A stretch of 64,000 bases of DNA from contig NZ_CP111042.1 in assembly GCF_026248685.1 (NCBI RefSeq), forward strand, positions 1-64,000, read 5' to 3'. Each line of letters starts with the position of its first letter. Position 1 is the stretch's first letter. Of the stretch, positions 45 through 6,533 are shown piece by piece. The position numbers and the translations under genes were made by a program. Under the pieces are notes generated by a model that was not told where the DNA came from, did no database searches, and saw only the letters and a list, made by a program, of their open reading frames with translations. The DNA comes from Haladaptatus caseinilyticus. GTDB lineage: Archaea; Halobacteriota; Halobacteria; Halobacteriales; Haladaptataceae.

Positions 45-350
45 ACGATGTTTACGATTCGTACGGATCGTAGAGTCCGCTGTAATCGGTTCGTATCTTA
101 TCCTCTGAACCGACGACAGCGCACTCCGTACTGTGAGCCTCGCACGGTGTTTGGGATTTGTTCGATTTTTACGAATCGTACGATTCGTATGCATCGTACG
201 ATTCGCACAGTTCGCACGTAACGTTTATACAATCACAATAGAATGGTTGAAGCAGAGGCACTCGCGAGGTTTACGAACTTCGAGATTTGAAGGATGTATG
301 CGATTCTTACGATTCGCACGAATCTCACGATTCGTAACATTCGCAGAGTA
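45..350. repeat. TTCG-rich short repeats upstream of parA (candidate centromere/operator)
   Basis: Three clusters of a motif close to ACGATTCGTA or its complement ACGAATCGTA lie at about 50-75, 165-225 and 300-350, some copies roughly one helical turn apart. Nothing in positions 1-364 looks like a gene; the short frame through the repeats reads as arginine- and phenylalanine-rich noise. Partition cassettes commonly carry such repeats before the ParA gene, where they bind the partner protein for segregation and autoregulation. The centromere role here is inferred from position and repetition only. Confidence 0.6.
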
Positions 351-364
351 CAAGAGGATCAATC

Positions 365-1246
365 ATGGCAAAGGAACACAACAGCGGAGAACCGCGCGCC
401 GTTTCTGTCGGCGTGCTCAAAGGCGGGTTCGGAAAGACTACGACGGCAATTAACCTTGCCCGTGAGTTAGCTCATCGAAACGGCTCAGCTCTCGTTGTCG
501 ACCTCGACGACAACGGCCACATGAGTCAGAATCTCGGATTCACGGGTCAGTATAGTGCCGAAGAGAATCACGCCGAAGCCGTTCTCATCAACGGTGAGGA
601 TCCAACACAATACATTCAACCAGTAAGCCACGGACTCGATATTTTCCCCGCTCATGTACAACTCGAAGACGTTCAGAGTGGCTTGAAGGAAGCGACAATG
701 GGCACGACACGGCTCAAGGAAAATCTCATCAGTCCGCTACTTGGTGAGGAGTACGAGTACATTGTAGTCGACTGTCCTGCAAATCGCGGAAAGTTGAACG
801 ACAACGCCATGTATGCAACAGGGAATATCATCATCCCCCTTCGTGCAGAGAGCGGATATGAAAGCGGACTGTCCAGTACCGTGCAACGGCTTGTACAAGA
901 AGCACGGCAGTACTTCGAGTTAAACATTCTTGCGATCACACCCACGGACTTACAAGATCGTATCGACCAACATACCCGCGACCGATCGCTCCTCAGGGAG
1001 ATCAACAATCGGGATGGCGTATCGAAGCTCGTGCCAAACTATGCGCGAGTGACCGACGATGAGTGGGACGCAATTGACAACGGAAATCAAAACGGGTATT
1101 TGCCCGGGATTCGGCATCGGGCGGCGATCGACCGTGCGCATGATGAAGGAGTTCCTCTTCGGGACTACGATGAGACCTGCGACCAGCTCGAAGCCTACGA
1201 TGAACTCGCTCAAATTGTTGAGCGGGGGGAGGTAGTACACGAATGA
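365..1246 (+). CDS. parA: ParA-family partition ATPase
   Basis: A 293-residue ParA/MinD-type P-loop ATPase that probably drives segregation of this replicon. The deviant Walker A motif KGGFGKTT lies at residues 19-26, with the lysine before GG typical of the family. A VVDLDDNGHMSQ segment (about residues 44-55) corresponds to the ParA switch region, and YIVVDCPAN (about 132-140) is the Walker B-like strand. There is no N-terminal DNA-binding domain, so autoregulation would need a partner. The stop overlaps the start of the next gene (ATGA), indicating an operon and translational coupling. The gene sits directly behind TTCG-rich repeats. Confidence 0.9.
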   Translation: MAKEHNSGEPRAVSVGVLKGGFGKTTTAINLARELAHRNGSALVVDLDDNGHMSQNLGFTGQYSAEENHAEAVLINGEDPTQYIQPVSHGLDIFPAHVQLEDVQSGLKEATMGTTRLKENLISPLLGEEYEYIVVDCPANRGKLNDNAMYATGNIIIPLRAESGYESGLSSTVQRLVQEARQYFELNILAITPTDLQDRIDQHTRDRSLLREINNRDGVSKLVPNYARVTDDEWDAIDNGNQNGYLPGIRHRAAIDRAHDEGVPLRDYDETCDQLEAYDELAQIVERGEVVHE

Positions 1247-1650
1247 CGGCGTTTGACGATCTTGAAAACGCAATCAACGGGGAAGCAGCGAAGACACCAA
1301 CTTCGGACAGTTCGTCCGATTCGAGCGAGTCTAGCGAATCGCAAACATCGACCGAATCGAACGAGCCGCACGAATCGCAGACATCGGAAGAACCAAAAGA
1401 TCCACGAAAAACGCCTGCATTCGAATTTTCCCCAGATCTGCGACGGAGTATCTATGCACGCGAAGAATCGTGGCAGGAGTTCGAAGATGCACGTGATCTC
1501 GAGATGACGCGAGAGTTACGAGACGCAGGCGTTCGAAATCACGAGAGTCGTGAGGTTCATGACGCAATGGTTCGGTTAGCGGCGGACAATCCCGAAAAGA
1601 TGACACGGTTGATCCTTGACGCACGCGGTGTCGACGAAGACAGTAGCTAG
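1243..1650 (+). CDS. Small acidic partner protein of ParA (putative ParB-like/accessory)
   Basis: A 135-residue protein translationally coupled to ParA by a 4-base overlap. Residues about 18-50 are a low-complexity Ser/Glu/Thr linker. The C-terminal half, about 60-135, is charged and probably helical. No classical ParB HTH or CTPase motif is visible, so the ParB-like role rests on position: haloarchaeal parA genes are often followed by a short protein of this design. The DNA encoding the linker repeats CGAATCG-type words that resemble the repeats upstream of parA. Confidence 0.7.
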   Translation: MTAFDDLENAINGEAAKTPTSDSSSDSSESSESQTSTESNEPHESQTSEEPKDPRKTPAFEFSPDLRRSIYAREESWQEFEDARDLEMTRELRDAGVRNHESREVHDAMVRLAADNPEKMTRLILDARGVDEDSS

Positions 1651-2240
1651 GGGAGTCCTTCAGCACATTCTAAAAGGTCATCCTCGGTCTGCCAGATACA
1701 CAGGCGGCCTGCATCATTTAGCATATCGAAAATTGCAGTCTGCATCCCACTGTATGGCTTCTCGAGATCGACGTTCGTATCGACTGTCTCGGAATCCAGA
1801 GTGGAATATTCACGCTTGAAAACTCGAGTCTTCGTAAAATAAGACCCCAGAGCAGTGAAGTATCCCTGTTCAACAAGAAAACCACCACGGTCGTGCTCGG
1901 TTATCCCGGCAATATAGTCAGTATAGTCCGCTAGAAGGCGGAATTTGACATAGGTGTTGACCCATTCACTCCGGATATCCACCATGAGAAATGCATAGGT
2001 ATCGCTCCGCCGGTTGAGACGATCCTTGACCAACTGAAGTCGGTATATTTCCGGGCGACCGTAACTACCGAGAACGAAGTAGGAAGACTCGTTTGTAAAA
2101 ATCGGCGAGAGCTCTGCAATACTATGTTTGAGGTCTTCGTATTCCTGCGGAGTGAGCGAAGTGTCGTGCAGATGCTCCTCGGCTTTCTCTGCCAATTCCT
2201 CGATAGTCGGCTCCTTTGTGCTCATTGTCTCCGTACTCAC
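1647..2240 (-). CDS. TIR/nucleoside-deoxyribosyltransferase-like protein (function unknown)
   Basis: A 197-residue soluble protein convergent with the ParA operon. Residues 1-50 are helical and charged. A Rossmann-like pattern follows: a strand ending in FVLGSYG (about 55-61), a helix, a strand FLMVDI (84-89), then ADYTDYIAGITEHDRGGF followed by VEQGYF (104-128). This strand, polar turn and Gly-Gly plus conserved Glu order resembles TIR-like and deoxyribosyltransferase-like folds, where the Glu is catalytic; E124 would be the candidate. The similarity is judged by eye, and enzymatic activity (for example NAD or nucleotide cleavage) is inference. It is divergent from the next gene across about 100 bp. 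Confidence 0.55.
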   Translation of the reverse strand: MSTETMSTKEPTIEELAEKAEEHLHDTSLTPQEYEDLKHSIAELSPIFTNESSYFVLGSYGRPEIYRLQLVKDRLNRRSDTYAFLMVDIRSEWVNTYVKFRLLADYTDYIAGITEHDRGGFLVEQGYFTALGSYFTKTRVFKREYSTLDSETVDTNVDLEKPYSGMQTAIFDMLNDAGRLCIWQTEDDLLECAEGLP

Positions 2241-2344
2241 AATCGCTGAGTATCAATACATCGACTTCATCAGGGACTGCATCGTAATGAACCGATTCGT
2301 ATTTCGACGAAACGCTTTTGCACGCACTACTCGAAGACACTAGT

Positions 2345-2755
2345 ATGAGTACGTCTGGTCACACGTCATCCAACCTCGACAACGTTCGAAAACGGTTGAA
2401 CGTTGTCACCCAAGAAACGCGGTTCTCGCTCATCCAAGACATCCTCGGACACCCATCCCAGCTTCCAACGCTGAAAGAACTGGACTACGTGAATCCAAGC
2501 AAGAGCCAGACGACGATCCGTCAGCACCTCCAGCAACTCGTTGATGTGGGAATCGTCGAAGAGGTGTTCCTCCCTGACAAGCAACGACAGAACGATCTCC
2601 CATACAAGTTCTACGGAATCAGTAACGAGGGACGAACGTTTCTCGGCGAACACGGGTTACTACGTGCCGAAGAAACGTTGCAGACGGTATATACTCGCGT
2701 AGAGAAGTCCGACGCGATTGAACGGTATCAAACTGCTCCTCGTCCTGAGCGTTGA
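2345..2755 (+). CDS. Winged-helix DNA-binding protein
   Basis: A 136-residue protein with an ArsR/MarR-like winged helix. Residues about 17-75 contain RKRLNVVTQETRFSLIQDIL, then LKELDYVNPSKSQTTIRQHL and QQLVDVGIVEE, the usual helix and recognition-helix order. PYKFYGISNEGRTFL is the wing and following helix. The ATG at 2345 is preferred over the frame start at 2318 because the leader in between (HALLEDTS) does not resemble the domain. Haloarchaeal transcripts are often leaderless, so the lack of a ribosome-binding site is no objection. It probably regulates the divergent TIR-like gene or the nearby replication genes. Confidence 0.8.
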   Translation: MSTSGHTSSNLDNVRKRLNVVTQETRFSLIQDILGHPSQLPTLKELDYVNPSKSQTTIRQHLQQLVDVGIVEEVFLPDKQRQNDLPYKFYGISNEGRTFLGEHGLLRAEETLQTVYTRVEKSDAIERYQTAPRPER

Positions 2756-2849
2756 TCGTCTTCTAGTGAGGTTTCGAAGCCATACGACGCATTGTAGCCG
2801 AAAATCGTATGACTGAAAAGTACCTGGAAGCAGTAGTTACAGGAAAAAG

Positions 2850-3420
2850 TTAGCGTCCCACGAGGCCAACAATCTGCTGGCGCATTTGGGTGTCAATCGG
2901 GATTCGAGAACACTGATCACCAAGTCCAATCGACTGAAGAAGAAGGCTTGCTTCATCCAACAGAGAGAGCGTTAGATACGTTCCTTCACGGTAACCATCA
3001 CTCGTTCGGGTCATTCGAGAGATGAATGACAGTCTGAACTTCCGAACGACGTTGGGCACAGTCGATAATTGCCCGACCGATTCGGGTATCATTCTCTGCA
3101 CCACGTTCTTCGACCTCCCGACTCACATATCGGGTGACAAGCGTCTTTCCGGAACCAGACTTGGTAAGAAGGAGAGTTCCTTTTCTAGATCCTCCCGTGA
3201 TTGTCGGTTTGAGTCGCCGAGCGACAGTGTCAATCTGGTTGTTTCGACCGACGATTTTGTCATGCTCGAGGATGTGGTCGATACGAAGTAAATCTTCGTT
3301 GGCGAAAATAGGATCATCCTCGTCAAGCACGGAAAGAGGAGCATCGCGAGCCTGAGAGCGAGAATGGGCAACAGCCCCATGCTCGCCGAGTGTTTTCACC
3401 TGTGCTGTGCCAGAATCCAT
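2850..3420 (-). pseudogene. Truncated Orc1/Cdc6 initiator remnant
   Basis: From the ATG at 3420, about 140 codons encode an Orc1/Cdc6 N-terminus: DDPIFANEDLLRIDHILEHD, a VGRNNQ segment and a P-loop KSGSGKT, closely parallel to the intact orc gene at 4438. The frame ends at 2998. The rest of the AAA+ domain (Walker B, sensors) and the C-terminal winged helix are absent. A different frame then runs to 2850 (REGTYLTLSLLDEASLLLQS...) and does not match Orc proteins; it looks like the 3' end of another gene joined by deletion. It is non-functional as an initiator. Confidence 0.75.
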
Positions 3421-3554
3421 ACACCGGATTTCAAATGAATTCAGGCACGATTCAGGCGGGAACAGAGCGAAGGAGAACAAGAAAAACACAATTAAACGGC
3501 CGTTTAACGAGCGGTAGAAGCGTAATGCCGTGGTTATCATTTGAAATCCGGTGT
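3421..3554. repeat. Perfect 18-bp inverted repeat around a 16-bp palindrome (candidate relic origin)
   Basis: The 18-mer at 3421-3438 (ACACCGGATTTCAAATGA) recurs exactly in inverted orientation at 3537-3554. Between the arms, 3492-3507 is a perfect palindrome, TTAAACGGCCGTTTAA. The pair begins one base upstream of the start codon of the dead orc fragment. Inverted origin-recognition boxes beside the cognate orc gene are the normal haloarchaeal arrangement, so this may be the origin of a second, inactivated replicon. The sequence differs from the ORB-like repeats at 3856-4401. Confidence 0.6.
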
Positions 3555-3855
3555 CAATTGGTGGGACACAACCGATCAGACGAATATTTATTATCAAACA
3601 GTGGTTCAGTGTTTAATATATAAATAAAGCTGTCGTAAACGTTAGTTCCATTTCAGAGTGGTTGTATCATTAAGAATTTGGATTCTTGCACGTTACTAAT
3701 ACTACTACTATCTCACCTTAATGGTAAAATATATACACATAACAACGCGACTTTCAGTGCTGTTTTCCAATTGAATTCAATTACCGGGGATTCAAAGAAT
3801 ACTCGTTTGTAAGAAGACGCCCTATGCGGGTGATTCTGAAACTTGAGACGAAGAC

Positions 3856-4401
3856 AGACACACCATGGTCGCGGATGTAAGCAACGAAAACGCGTGTGCT
3901 GTCGTTCAAATTAGAAGGTCACACACCACCATCGCGAATGTAACGCCCAATGAACCAGGGGTCAACTGAGGATGTTCATTGGTGTCCCATATCTTATTAG
4001 AAACTTACTTGTAGCATAGGACCGTAAAGTCCACTAAGTTAATTCTAATTAGTTCAAAGAGTGGTCGCTTATTCGACCACTCTCGTTTTCCTCATCTGCC
4101 GAATTACGTGAGCTTGGGTAATCGTCTACCCCTTTGCTATACTCGTTACATCCGCGACGGTGGTGTGTGTGATTACACGTCTTCTCACGACTTTAGTAAT
4201 TCATCAACAGATCGTGTGAGCCCCCTATCTCAGATATTTCTTGTATTTACATACGCGACACTGGTGTCTGACGCTGCAATCTGATATCGCCTTTCAGTAT
4301 TTCATCCGCGATGCCACCCTATTCCGACAGTAAGCCCAAATATCGATCTCGAAAGCTATGTGTAGTGATTCTCCCCGAATTACATCCGCGGCTCCCCTCC
4401 C
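3856..4401. other. Candidate replication origin with six ORB-like repeats
   Basis: Six copies of a motif near TTACATCCGCGACGGTGGTGTGTG are present. Two are in reverse orientation at 3856-3880 and 3920-3943. Four are in forward orientation at 4146-4171, 4247-4270, 4300-4320 and 4380-4401; the last two keep mainly the TTACATCCGCG core. The reverse and forward groups face each other across an A+T-richer stretch (about 3960-4140), which fits a DNA-unwinding element. The array ends about 40 bp before the intact orc gene. Paired, inverted ORBs around an AT-rich element next to orc are the standard haloarchaeal origin layout. The 3555-3855 stretch is AT-rich and shows no gene. Confidence 0.75.
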
Positions 4402-4437
4402 TTTATTACGTATGAGAAATATGTAATAGTCAATCGT

Positions 4438-5682
4438 ATGGTGTCCGATGAGTCTGACGATCGTGATCCACTCTTTCGGTACGATGATCCGGTCTTCGCC
4501 CGAGAAGAACTCTTGAAAATTAAGCATATCCCTGGATCAGATCGAATCGTTGGTCGGGATGAGCATATGAAACAAGTCGCTGAAGCCCTCAATCCTGCAA
4601 TTTTCGGCCGTGAACCGACTCACCTCCTCATTTTCGGCGAAACAGGCACAGGAAAGAGTTTGATTTCGCGAAGTGTGACAGAGCGTGTTATCAAAGAAGC
4701 TAAGCGAGACGACATTACGGTAAAAGCTGCCTATGTTGATTGTGGCGAACAAAATACCGAAGCTGGTGTCGTTAAGACCATTGGTCGTGAACTGAACAAT
4801 CCGACTCAGAGCGGTATTACTATTCCAGAACGGGGGCTTGCGACTGGTGATTATTATCGACGTTTATGGGATGTTCTCGATATGTGTTGTGACGTTGCAA
4901 TTCTTATCCTTGATGAAATCGACCTTCTGGAGGACGATGAAGTCCTTCGGAAGCTATCTCGTGCGGGTGAAAATCAGCAAATCTCCGACTCGAATATCGG
5001 TATCATCGGTATCTCCAACAAAATCAATTTTGCTGATGAACTCGGAGAACGCGTCAAATCCAGCTTCGCACGTGATGAATTGGTTTTCCCTGCCTATGAC
5101 GCAACCCAACTCGTTGATATCCTTCAAAACCGTCGTGATGCCTTTCGTGAGAATGTCCTCGAAGGCGACGTTATCCCACTTACTGCGGCCCTTGCGGCTC
5201 AAGAACACGGTGATGCCCGCAAGGCAATTGATATTCTTCGAAACGCTGGGCGCATCGCTGCTCAATCGGATACTATTCCGGTAACTGATGAGCACGTTCG
5301 CCAGGCAAAGAAAAAAACGGAAGCCGACCGATTTGCCGAGTTAATTGCTGGAGCCCCAACGCAAGCAAAGACAATCCTGTTGGCACTCACCAACCTTACC
5401 GAGTCTAAACAAGCCGATGAGTTTTCTACGAAGGAAATTTATCGACGGTATCAACAAATAGCACGGGGAACAGGTCTCGATATGCTCTCTGAACGTCGTA
5501 CCCAGGAGATTTTGAAAGAACACGATTTCTTGAACGTGATTCAGTCGGAGCGCCGAGGTCGAGGGCGTGGTCAAGGGGTTCATGCAAAGCATCGTCTCCT
5601 TGAGGAACCCGATATCGTCAAATCCGTACTCGAACAAGATTCTCGCATTAGCGATTTTCTCTCGTCGACTGATAACGATTAA
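4438..5682 (+). CDS. orc: Orc1/Cdc6 replication initiator
   Basis: A full-length 414-residue initiator ATPase that would recognise the adjacent ORB-like repeats and load the MCM helicase. The AAA+ domain has Walker A GETGTGKS (67-74), Walker B LILDEID (156-162) and a sensor-1 strand IGIIGISNKINF (about 187-198). The lid region contains HGDARKAIDILRNAGRIA. The C-terminal winged helix lies at about 300-400 (STKEIYRRYQQIA ... LSERRTQEILKEHDFLNVI). The DDPVFAREELLKIKHIPGSD leader is typical of haloarchaeal Orc proteins. It is probably autoregulated through the repeats just upstream. The A+T bias is higher than in many later genes. Confidence 0.95.
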   Translation: MVSDESDDRDPLFRYDDPVFAREELLKIKHIPGSDRIVGRDEHMKQVAEALNPAIFGREPTHLLIFGETGTGKSLISRSVTERVIKEAKRDDITVKAAYVDCGEQNTEAGVVKTIGRELNNPTQSGITIPERGLATGDYYRRLWDVLDMCCDVAILILDEIDLLEDDEVLRKLSRAGENQQISDSNIGIIGISNKINFADELGERVKSSFARDELVFPAYDATQLVDILQNRRDAFRENVLEGDVIPLTAALAAQEHGDARKAIDILRNAGRIAAQSDTIPVTDEHVRQAKKKTEADRFAELIAGAPTQAKTILLALTNLTESKQADEFSTKEIYRRYQQIARGTGLDMLSERRTQEILKEHDFLNVIQSERRGRGRGQGVHAKHRLLEEPDIVKSVLEQDSRISDFLSSTDND

Positions 5683-6060
5683 TCTGCACTTCTTGAGTGA
5701 CTCTTTTTCACTCTGTTCTTTGCGTTCCACTCGTTCAATGCGCTCTTTGAACTCTTTCCTTCCTTTGGTTTTTATTCTCAGTAAAGTCAGTGTCTGACAT
5801 CTTGCTTTTGAATCCACACGAGCGGATTAACCGATTATATCGCTTATCGTGCTACGAGATTAGCTCTTGCAGACGCTAATCTCCATCCTCGACGCGCTTC
5901 GTGCGTGTGATAGGGTAGGTTACAATCCATCCCCTGCTTTCTCTTATTTCCATGCGTTCCACTCCTTCCTTGCGTTCTTTGAATTTACCAAAATCGCAAT
6001 TTCACTAATTATCTGGCTCAGTGTCGACTTCTGGTTCCTGATCGACAAATATCTCCACTT
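5683..6060. other. Gene-free spacer with a degenerate 37-39 bp repeat
   Basis: No coding signal is seen between orc and the AbrB-like gene. Two pyrimidine-rich segments, 5720-5758 and 5953-5989, share the order TGCGTTCCACTC, then TGCG(C/T)TCTTTGAA, at roughly three-quarters identity. They could be remnants of a duplication or initiator-related sites; no function can be assigned. Confidence 0.4.
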
Positions 6061-6480
6061 TCAGACTTGCTCACGCCGAATCGTCGCCATATCTGCTGCC
6101 ACTCGTTTGGATCCTTCTGCCGCAATCACAAGGATATTCGGCGCTGGCGTACAGGGCGCTCGATCTCCGACGTGAAATCCAGCATCTGCAGCACCCGGCA
6201 GTTGCACTTGATACCCATTCCCCGCTATCTGGAGAGAAGCGTTTGCAACTCGGTGGATCGAGACAGTGTCGAGGGCGGCGGAGGTCGCGAGTTCGACCAT
6301 ATTCTCATTAGTGATGCGGTCGATGTCGACGACAAGAAGGAGACCGTCGAATGCAAACACGCGGATGTTGGCACGACGGGTGGTCTCCTCGTCATTCTCT
6401 TCGACGATTTTAGCGGCTCGGGCTGGTTTTGTGACCTGGAGAGCGAGACCATCGCCGGAGCGTTTGATTTTGTTCGCCAT
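6061..6480 (-). CDS. SpoVT/AbrB-like DNA-binding protein
   Basis: A 139-residue protein whose start (ANKIKRSGDGLALQVTKPAR) matches the swapped-hairpin AbrB pattern of a basic strand, RSG-turn and LALxVTKP strand. FAFDGLLLVVD at about 43-53 completes the first unit. A second similar unit is visible at about 82-122 (SLQIAGNGYQVQLPG, then GFHVGDRAPCTPAPNILVIAA), suggesting two AbrB-like units in one chain. Such proteins act as plasmid regulators or antitoxins; no toxin partner is adjacent. A perfect inverted repeat (6486-6504) lies immediately upstream of the start and is a candidate autoregulatory operator. The overlapping plus-strand frame lacks recognisable protein character. Confidence 0.7.
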   Translation of the reverse strand: MANKIKRSGDGLALQVTKPARAAKIVEENDEETTRRANIRVFAFDGLLLVVDIDRITNENMVELATSAALDTVSIHRVANASLQIAGNGYQVQLPGAADAGFHVGDRAPCTPAPNILVIAAEGSKRVAADMATIRREQV

Positions 6481-6485
6481 TGAGC

Positions 6486-6504
6486 GTTAGTATGCTATAC
6501 TAAC
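6486..6504. promoter_or_regulatory. Palindromic operator candidate GTTAGTAT-N3-ATACTAAC
   Basis: Perfect 8-bp arms with a 3-bp spacer sit 6 bp upstream of the AbrB-like start codon. A near-identical site (one arm mismatch) occurs at 43922-43940 and a looser one at 8009-8031, so a shared DNA-binding protein is likely. Confidence 0.55.
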
Positions 6505-6533
6505 CTAAGAAGATTCGCCTCACCTCTTGAGGT

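Follow-up and report, generated by a model that had tools for sequence, protein, structure and literature searches.

Does the DNA ahead of an orc1/cdc6 gene some 4 kb into a haloarchaeal contig act as a replication origin, and which of the repeats that it carries would serve replication and which the control of the gene? The contig is 389,240 bp long and belongs to a 4.82-Mb genome; its first 64 kb make up the stretch that we analysed as a whole (hereafter the window).

Six repeats in two facing groups ahead of an intact orc gene

The features from which the argument starts are as follows.

4438..5682, plus strand: intact orc1/cdc6 initiator gene for a 414-aa protein, with Walker A at residue 67 and LDEID at 158
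3857..3880, minus strand: ORB R1, outer reverse copy, core + GGTGT
3920..3943, minus strand: ORB R2, inner reverse copy, core + GGTGT
4146..4169, plus strand: ORB F1, first forward copy, core + GGTGT
4247..4270, plus strand: ORB F2, core + GGTGT
4300..4311, plus strand: ORB F3, core only
4380..4391, plus strand: promoter-proximal ORB (Fp), which is core-only and a candidate operator; 58 bp before orc
4402..4406, plus strand: TATA-like TTTAT, 10 bp past the Fp core; putative orc promoter
3869-3880(-), 3932-3943(-), 4146-4157(+), 4247-4258(+), 4300-4311(+) and 4380-4391(+): the six ORB cores, each with at most one mismatch to TTACATCCGCGA

As had been predicted, orc is intact. Its 414-codon ORF matches TIGR02928 (E 1.9e-119) and encodes an AAA+ domain, a Cdc6 lid and a winged-helix domain, and the protein aligns over its full length with the nearest solved structures, which are of archaeal initiators (2qby_A, E 1.5e-87; 2v1u_A, E 2.3e-87). 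The winged helix carries ERR at residues 352-354 and GRGRG at 374, and at the level of sequence R354 is invariant in 43 aligned rows.

Matches to TTACATCCGCGA with at most one mismatch number six in the window, all of them within 3869-4391 and ahead of orc, two on the minus strand followed by four on the plus strand. The two facing groups of the original prediction are thus exactly what is found. A chance origin of the repeats can be ruled out, as only 0.29 such matches are expected in the window and none of 100 shuffles gave six or more; for the long form TTACATNCGCGANNNNGGTGTSTG (up to two mismatches) all four matches in the window lie at this locus and 0.01 are expected. The description of one six-copy motif holds for the core, which all six copies have, but not for the second part of the repeat: GGTGT(G/C)TG or a near form of it stands four bases past the core in four of the six copies, whereas the copies at 4300 and 4380, nearest orc, are core-only. 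With no mismatches allowed, the bipartite pattern occurs at precisely these four places in the entire genome. No copies lie inside or downstream of orc at this locus.

The repeat follows the initiator subfamily

Plasmid records, 391 genomes of the class that we searched, and named genome contigs supplied the orc relatives; from the named contigs we retained 80 loci, of which 70 reached at least 62% identity. A locus was counted as family, the window included, when its orc was at least 62% identical. Before counting we left out L013, which is the same locus, the gene fragments L163 and L232, which lack upstream DNA, and loci with identical 300-bp upstreams, after which 136 family loci remained, 132 of them with at least 700 bp upstream. 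The counts given here for the family are counts of related sequences and not of phylogenetically independent events.

The facing layout, reverse copies and then forward copies, precedes orc in 128 of the 132 loci, and a forward copy stands close before orc in 132 of the 136 (at -57 to -72 in 115/119 of the subset scored for position). A motif built from the family is found 5.5 times per locus (up to 1,500 bp), whereas 700 bp of shuffled upstream DNA yield 0.028 occurrences at the same threshold. By its own terms the original prediction would have been contradicted had close orc homologues lacked the motif beside them; we checked, and it is there. At orc loci of 55% identity or less it was found in 0/20 and 0/10 rows of two sets, these 30 rows including one gene twice (L009 and L015), the partial gene L011, and L165 and L235, which are probably one locus counted twice. 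Where a repeat cluster was found at such loci, it had a core of its own with a similar G-rich tail.

Two of the four layout failures (L157 and L161, Halomarina-type) keep the layout unchanged with TTACAGCGGCGA in place of TTACATCCGCGA, which argues that core and initiator change together. A third, L021, has just 770 bp of upstream sequence, and in its two nearest relatives the reverse copy lies beyond that distance; the fourth, L038, has forward copies only. Six of the 80 named loci, among them those of Halorussus aquaticus, Natribaculum breve and Natrinema zhouii, carry 'chromosome' in their titles, so that the repeat tracks the initiator subfamily and not the replicon, on plasmids and main chromosomes alike. 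The suggestion that the repeat is specific to this replicon therefore stands within this genome, where the bipartite form occurs only here, but in general it is ruled out by the shared layout.

In a tree of orc sequences the four Haladaptatus-type rows group together to the exclusion of all others (support 100/100); several branches are long and the outer joins unsafe. We set aside the reading that they are sisters, by vertical descent, of the chromosomal orc genes of Halorussus, since the tree does not resolve that relation.

Taken with the promoter copy, the conserved layout strongly supports an origin ahead of its cognate orc, and we consider it very probable that the locus is a haloarchaeal replication origin of the 389-kb element, dependent on the adjacent Orc1/Cdc6. 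It has the features of haloarchaeal origins of the kind that adjoin orc1/cdc6, namely an intact orc, inverted ORBs beside it, a G-string and a family-specific ORB sequence. It is not of the oriC1 kind, for which the Orc is found in all haloarchaea: the present Orc family is not universal, since matches at E 1e-130 or better were found in 117 of the 391 class genomes. The ORB cluster downstream of cdc6 that marks the oriC2 type is likewise absent from the window locus.

Repeats at the promoter lack the GGTGT element

Across the family, the copies flanking the predicted origin are bipartite (core, 4 nt, GGTGT) in 371 of 381 cases. With GGTGT sought 2-12 nt past the core, it was found in the outer reverse copy in 128/129 cases, in other reverse copies in 120/123 and in F1 in 123/129. 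The middle forward copies have it in 122/209 cases, copies at -155 to -130 in 0/30, and promoter copies, which retain the core, in 0/132. In 123 of 132 loci a TATA-like TTTAW is found 31-37 bp ahead of orc; in 95 of these 123 it is 14 bp from the core of the promoter copy, the spacing in the window being 10 bp. The original prediction had taken the four copies on the orc side as a sign of both origin function and autoregulation. Autoregulation may hold for the promoter copy, and for one near -140, which look operator-like in having the core without GGTGT, in the former case next to TATA; it does not extend to all four.

At other orc loci, paralogues in this genome among them, the core is different and the G-rich tail similar. 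L002, L005, L010, L024 and L164 also have, at -55 to -61, a copy that is core-only; in orc4-type loci and in L165, L235 and L237 the copy at -65 to -72 has a G-rich tail. The core-only promoter copy is thus no universal rule, as some other orc families keep the G-string there.

The promoter copy might lack GGTGT merely because an archaeal BRE/TATA fills that place, which would make it a relic instead of an operator. Indeed, Fp has a C-rich tail that runs into TTTAT, and the retention of the G-string by other families at this position points the same way. We nevertheless regard this explanation as rather doubtful: the promoter-copy core carries about 2 bits at most positions (115 loci), close to full information, its place is fixed, and the copies at -155 to -130 have lost GGTGT just as completely though they lie away from the promoter.

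The probable origin stands in place of an older one

To the left of the repeats lie a partition locus and the broken remains of a second, different orc with its repeats (2853-3793), which were absent from the original prediction.

365..1246, plus strand: ParA-type partition ATPase, 93% to the Haladaptatus salinisoli plasmid
1243..1650, plus strand: small gene overlapping parA, by its position a probable partition partner
2853..3065, minus strand: orc-II C-terminal remnant, 73% to residues 389-459
3001..3420, minus strand: orc-II N-terminal remnant (second, different orc), 91% to residues 1-144 of 459
3421..3439, minus strand: surviving ORB of old origin II
3536..3554, plus strand: surviving ORB of old origin II
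3555..3793, no strand: AT-rich tract, aligned with the AT-rich stretch of H. salinisoli origin II
3794..6058, no strand: stretch to which nothing in the collinear H. salinisoli plasmid corresponds; holds the present origin and orc

Window 176-3018 corresponds to positions 600-3435 of H. salinisoli plasmid NZ_CP085328 at 85%, and both share parA and its small neighbour (for 1243..1650 no family match was found). Collinearity continues with window 3014-3443 (4227-4668 of the plasmid), 3421-3793 (4774-5139) and, on the other side, 6059-6520 (5342-5803). No collinear match exists for window 3794-6058; a match at 5074-5219 within it is orc to orc. On its minus strand, at 3266-4645, the plasmid carries a different kind of orc, intact and with facing repeats of core TTCATTTGAAATCCGGTGT, reverse at 4646, 4712 and 4774 and forward at 4885 and 5228. 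In the window about 796 bp of this orc-II are gone, the two remnants are in different frames, and two of the origin II repeats are retained, most having been lost. (The two ends of the 796-bp deletion have five bases, 3014-3018, in common, which is what loss by microhomology would be expected to leave.) We rejected an orc-II elsewhere serving the old ORBs in trans: the genome holds no intact copy, its best other places reaching 43% or less, and the old ORB occurs only at its two relic sites.

About 2.3 kb with the present origin thus stand in place of older orc/origin DNA. Because the present origin lies where the salinisoli-type plasmid has another orc and origin, of which here there is wreckage, the comparison of the sequences indicates that one initiator/origin pair was replaced by another while the neighbouring parA locus was kept. 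The 2.3-kb stretch may have come by insertion or by recombination. The nearest relatives of the present origin, in H. halobius and Haladaptatus sp. DYF46, are without the left-hand neighbours, and in three stretches from the rest of the contig no one plasmid emerged as the donor, the matches being spread over many Haladaptatus plasmids.

The gene at 6061-6480, for a 139-aa protein of unknown function, is present on 10 Haladaptatus plasmid records; some carry it several times, and it sometimes lies near orc genes. Being multicopy, it is weak as a precise right-hand marker of the exchange; the collinearity with H. salinisoli still holds.

Candidate unwinding region

Two further features lie between the facing groups.

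3944..4145, no strand: gap between the facing groups (R2-F1), where unwinding may occur; GC is 0.436 overall and falls to 0.32 at about 3998-4057
4058..4083, no strand: hairpin with a 10-bp stem in the gap, found at this position in all 4 Haladaptatus-type origins compared

Between the groups there is, as predicted, a stretch richer in AT, but only modestly so. The lowest GC in the gap refers to a 60-bp step, and the gap as a whole compares with 0.453 for the 1.5 kb upstream, while the most AT-rich 60 bp of the locus lie beyond the facing groups, with their start at about 3580, 858 bp ahead of orc. Within the family the most AT-rich 60 bp fall inside the R2-F1 gap in 16/128 loci, and AT richness was not upheld as a strong argument. 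The place of unwinding would accordingly be the weakest link of the origin model.

The unwinding element might instead be the AT-rich tract 5' of R1 (about 3555-3793), left by the broken origin II, so that the origin would be chimeric. That tract aligns with H. salinisoli origin II, and in 86/128 family loci the most AT-rich 60 bp lie within 300 bp 5' of R1, as they lie 5' of R1 in the window. We think this improbable, given that the inward polarity of the cores in the full ORBs points to the R2-F1 gap, that the GC of the gap is below that of the F1-Fp zone in 93/127 loci, that intergenic DNA is generally AT-rich, and that H. halobius has the present origin without the origin II tract. The R2-F1 gap remains our candidate.

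A hairpin with a 9-12-bp stem is shared by the gaps, each of about 200 bp, of the window, L016, L029 and L166. The stem is common to three Haladaptatus-type origins, L016 requiring one G-T pair; that of L166 differs in sequence. A perfect stem of at least 8 bp occurs in 3/125 other family gaps.

Other candidate origins on the contig

The same contig holds a second orc (L010, C7:239187-240293) with facing repeats of GTTCACTTGCAA plus GGTGT and a core-only copy at -61, which makes it another candidate origin, and a third, partial orc (L011, C7:287946-288677). The 4-kb locus need not be the only active origin, since the orc at 239 kb also has facing repeats. Along the 389-kb contig the cumulative GC skew reaches no extremum around 4 kb, and we dropped GC, purine and keto skew as support for an origin there. 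With a second equipped orc, no skew signal and dormant origins reported for Haloferax mediterranei (PMC4595724), the repeats might be mainly an autoregulatory or titration array for Orc at a dormant locus, the replicon starting elsewhere, for example at 239 kb; this is very improbable, as the conserved facing layout and the origin-side GGTGT exceed what a titrator needs, no copies lie within or beyond orc, and orc is intact beside a decayed orc-II.

Predicted mechanism and relation to known systems

The repeats, their two site classes, their conservation across the subfamily and the intact orc are the observations from which we infer how binding, melting, repression and activity of the origin might proceed. 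From what is established for archaeal Orc1/Cdc6 proteins, the winged helix would be expected to read the core of the repeat and the AAA+ domain its GGTGT part. Orc would bind R1, R2 and F1, all of them full ORBs, in this way, winged helix on the core and AAA+ domain on the GGTGT element. The cores face inward toward the R2-F1 gap and the G-strings outward, as we also understand the arrangement described for Haloarcula hispanica oriC1 (PMC3936714); Orc would then melt the DNA in the gap and load MCM. Surplus Orc would fill the core-only site beside the orc TATA box, where orc would most likely be repressed by its own product. 

For such binding PMC9738581, in the sections compared, places arginines of the winged helix at the ORB, with the ISM contacting the G-track. 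The Saccharolobus regulator Orc1-2 treated there is likewise an Orc-type protein that binds its own promoter, with AAA+/ISM and winged helix involved. Orc1-2 differs in being a non-initiator with another motif, whereas the window Orc would do both jobs.

Family-specific ORBs, G-strings and origin turnover are already published (the parts consulted of PMC3528665, PMC3936714 and PMC4441112). Wu et al. 2012 (PMC3528665) describe haloarchaeal orc/cdc6-adjacent origins that are alike in having inverted ORBs and a G-string upstream of orc and an ORB sequence linked to the Orc family, and report that extrachromosomal replicons recruit new origins; in the sections compared, core-only promoter sites and full sites are not set apart. 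The present repeat does not appear in the main text of that paper, but its supplementary ORB tables may already list it. In Haloarcula hispanica, according to the parts of PMC3936714 consulted, oriC1 has two inverted ORBs flanking an AT-rich region, with essential G-strings at the ORB ends, against six copies in the window; oriC2 is similarly ORB-rich with its own cdc6 but has a downstream titrating array, oriC2D, whereas the window orc has no such copies. At the Haloarcula cdc6D origins gain, disruption and replacement occur at variable sites, with loss by transposase (PMC4441112, as far as consulted); in the window the old origin decayed beside its successor and parA was kept. The core of H. 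hispanica oriC1 presumably differs from that of the window. A search of the main texts of papers found neither the two-class site rule nor the half-erased predecessor, and for twelve-mer forms of the core no relevant paper and one unrelated match.

We tentatively put forward, as a possibility short of probable, that one initiator reads two classes of site, GGTGT plus core as origin and core beside TATA as operator, in a homeostatic loop; that the core is specific to the Orc subfamily and the G-rich tail shared; and that whole origin-orc cassettes are replaceable beside a constant parA, the window capturing one exchange with the replaced origin half erased. If so, the two-class pattern would provide a sharp, testable rule for telling origin from operator sites of one archaeal initiator. 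One ORB core is linked to one Orc subfamily over many plasmid and chromosomal loci, and L157 and L161, set against the TTACATCCGCGA loci, form a natural pair for the study of a shift in Orc specificity. The locus itself would be a base-level example of an initiator/origin swap in a multi-replicon archaeon that kept its partition locus.
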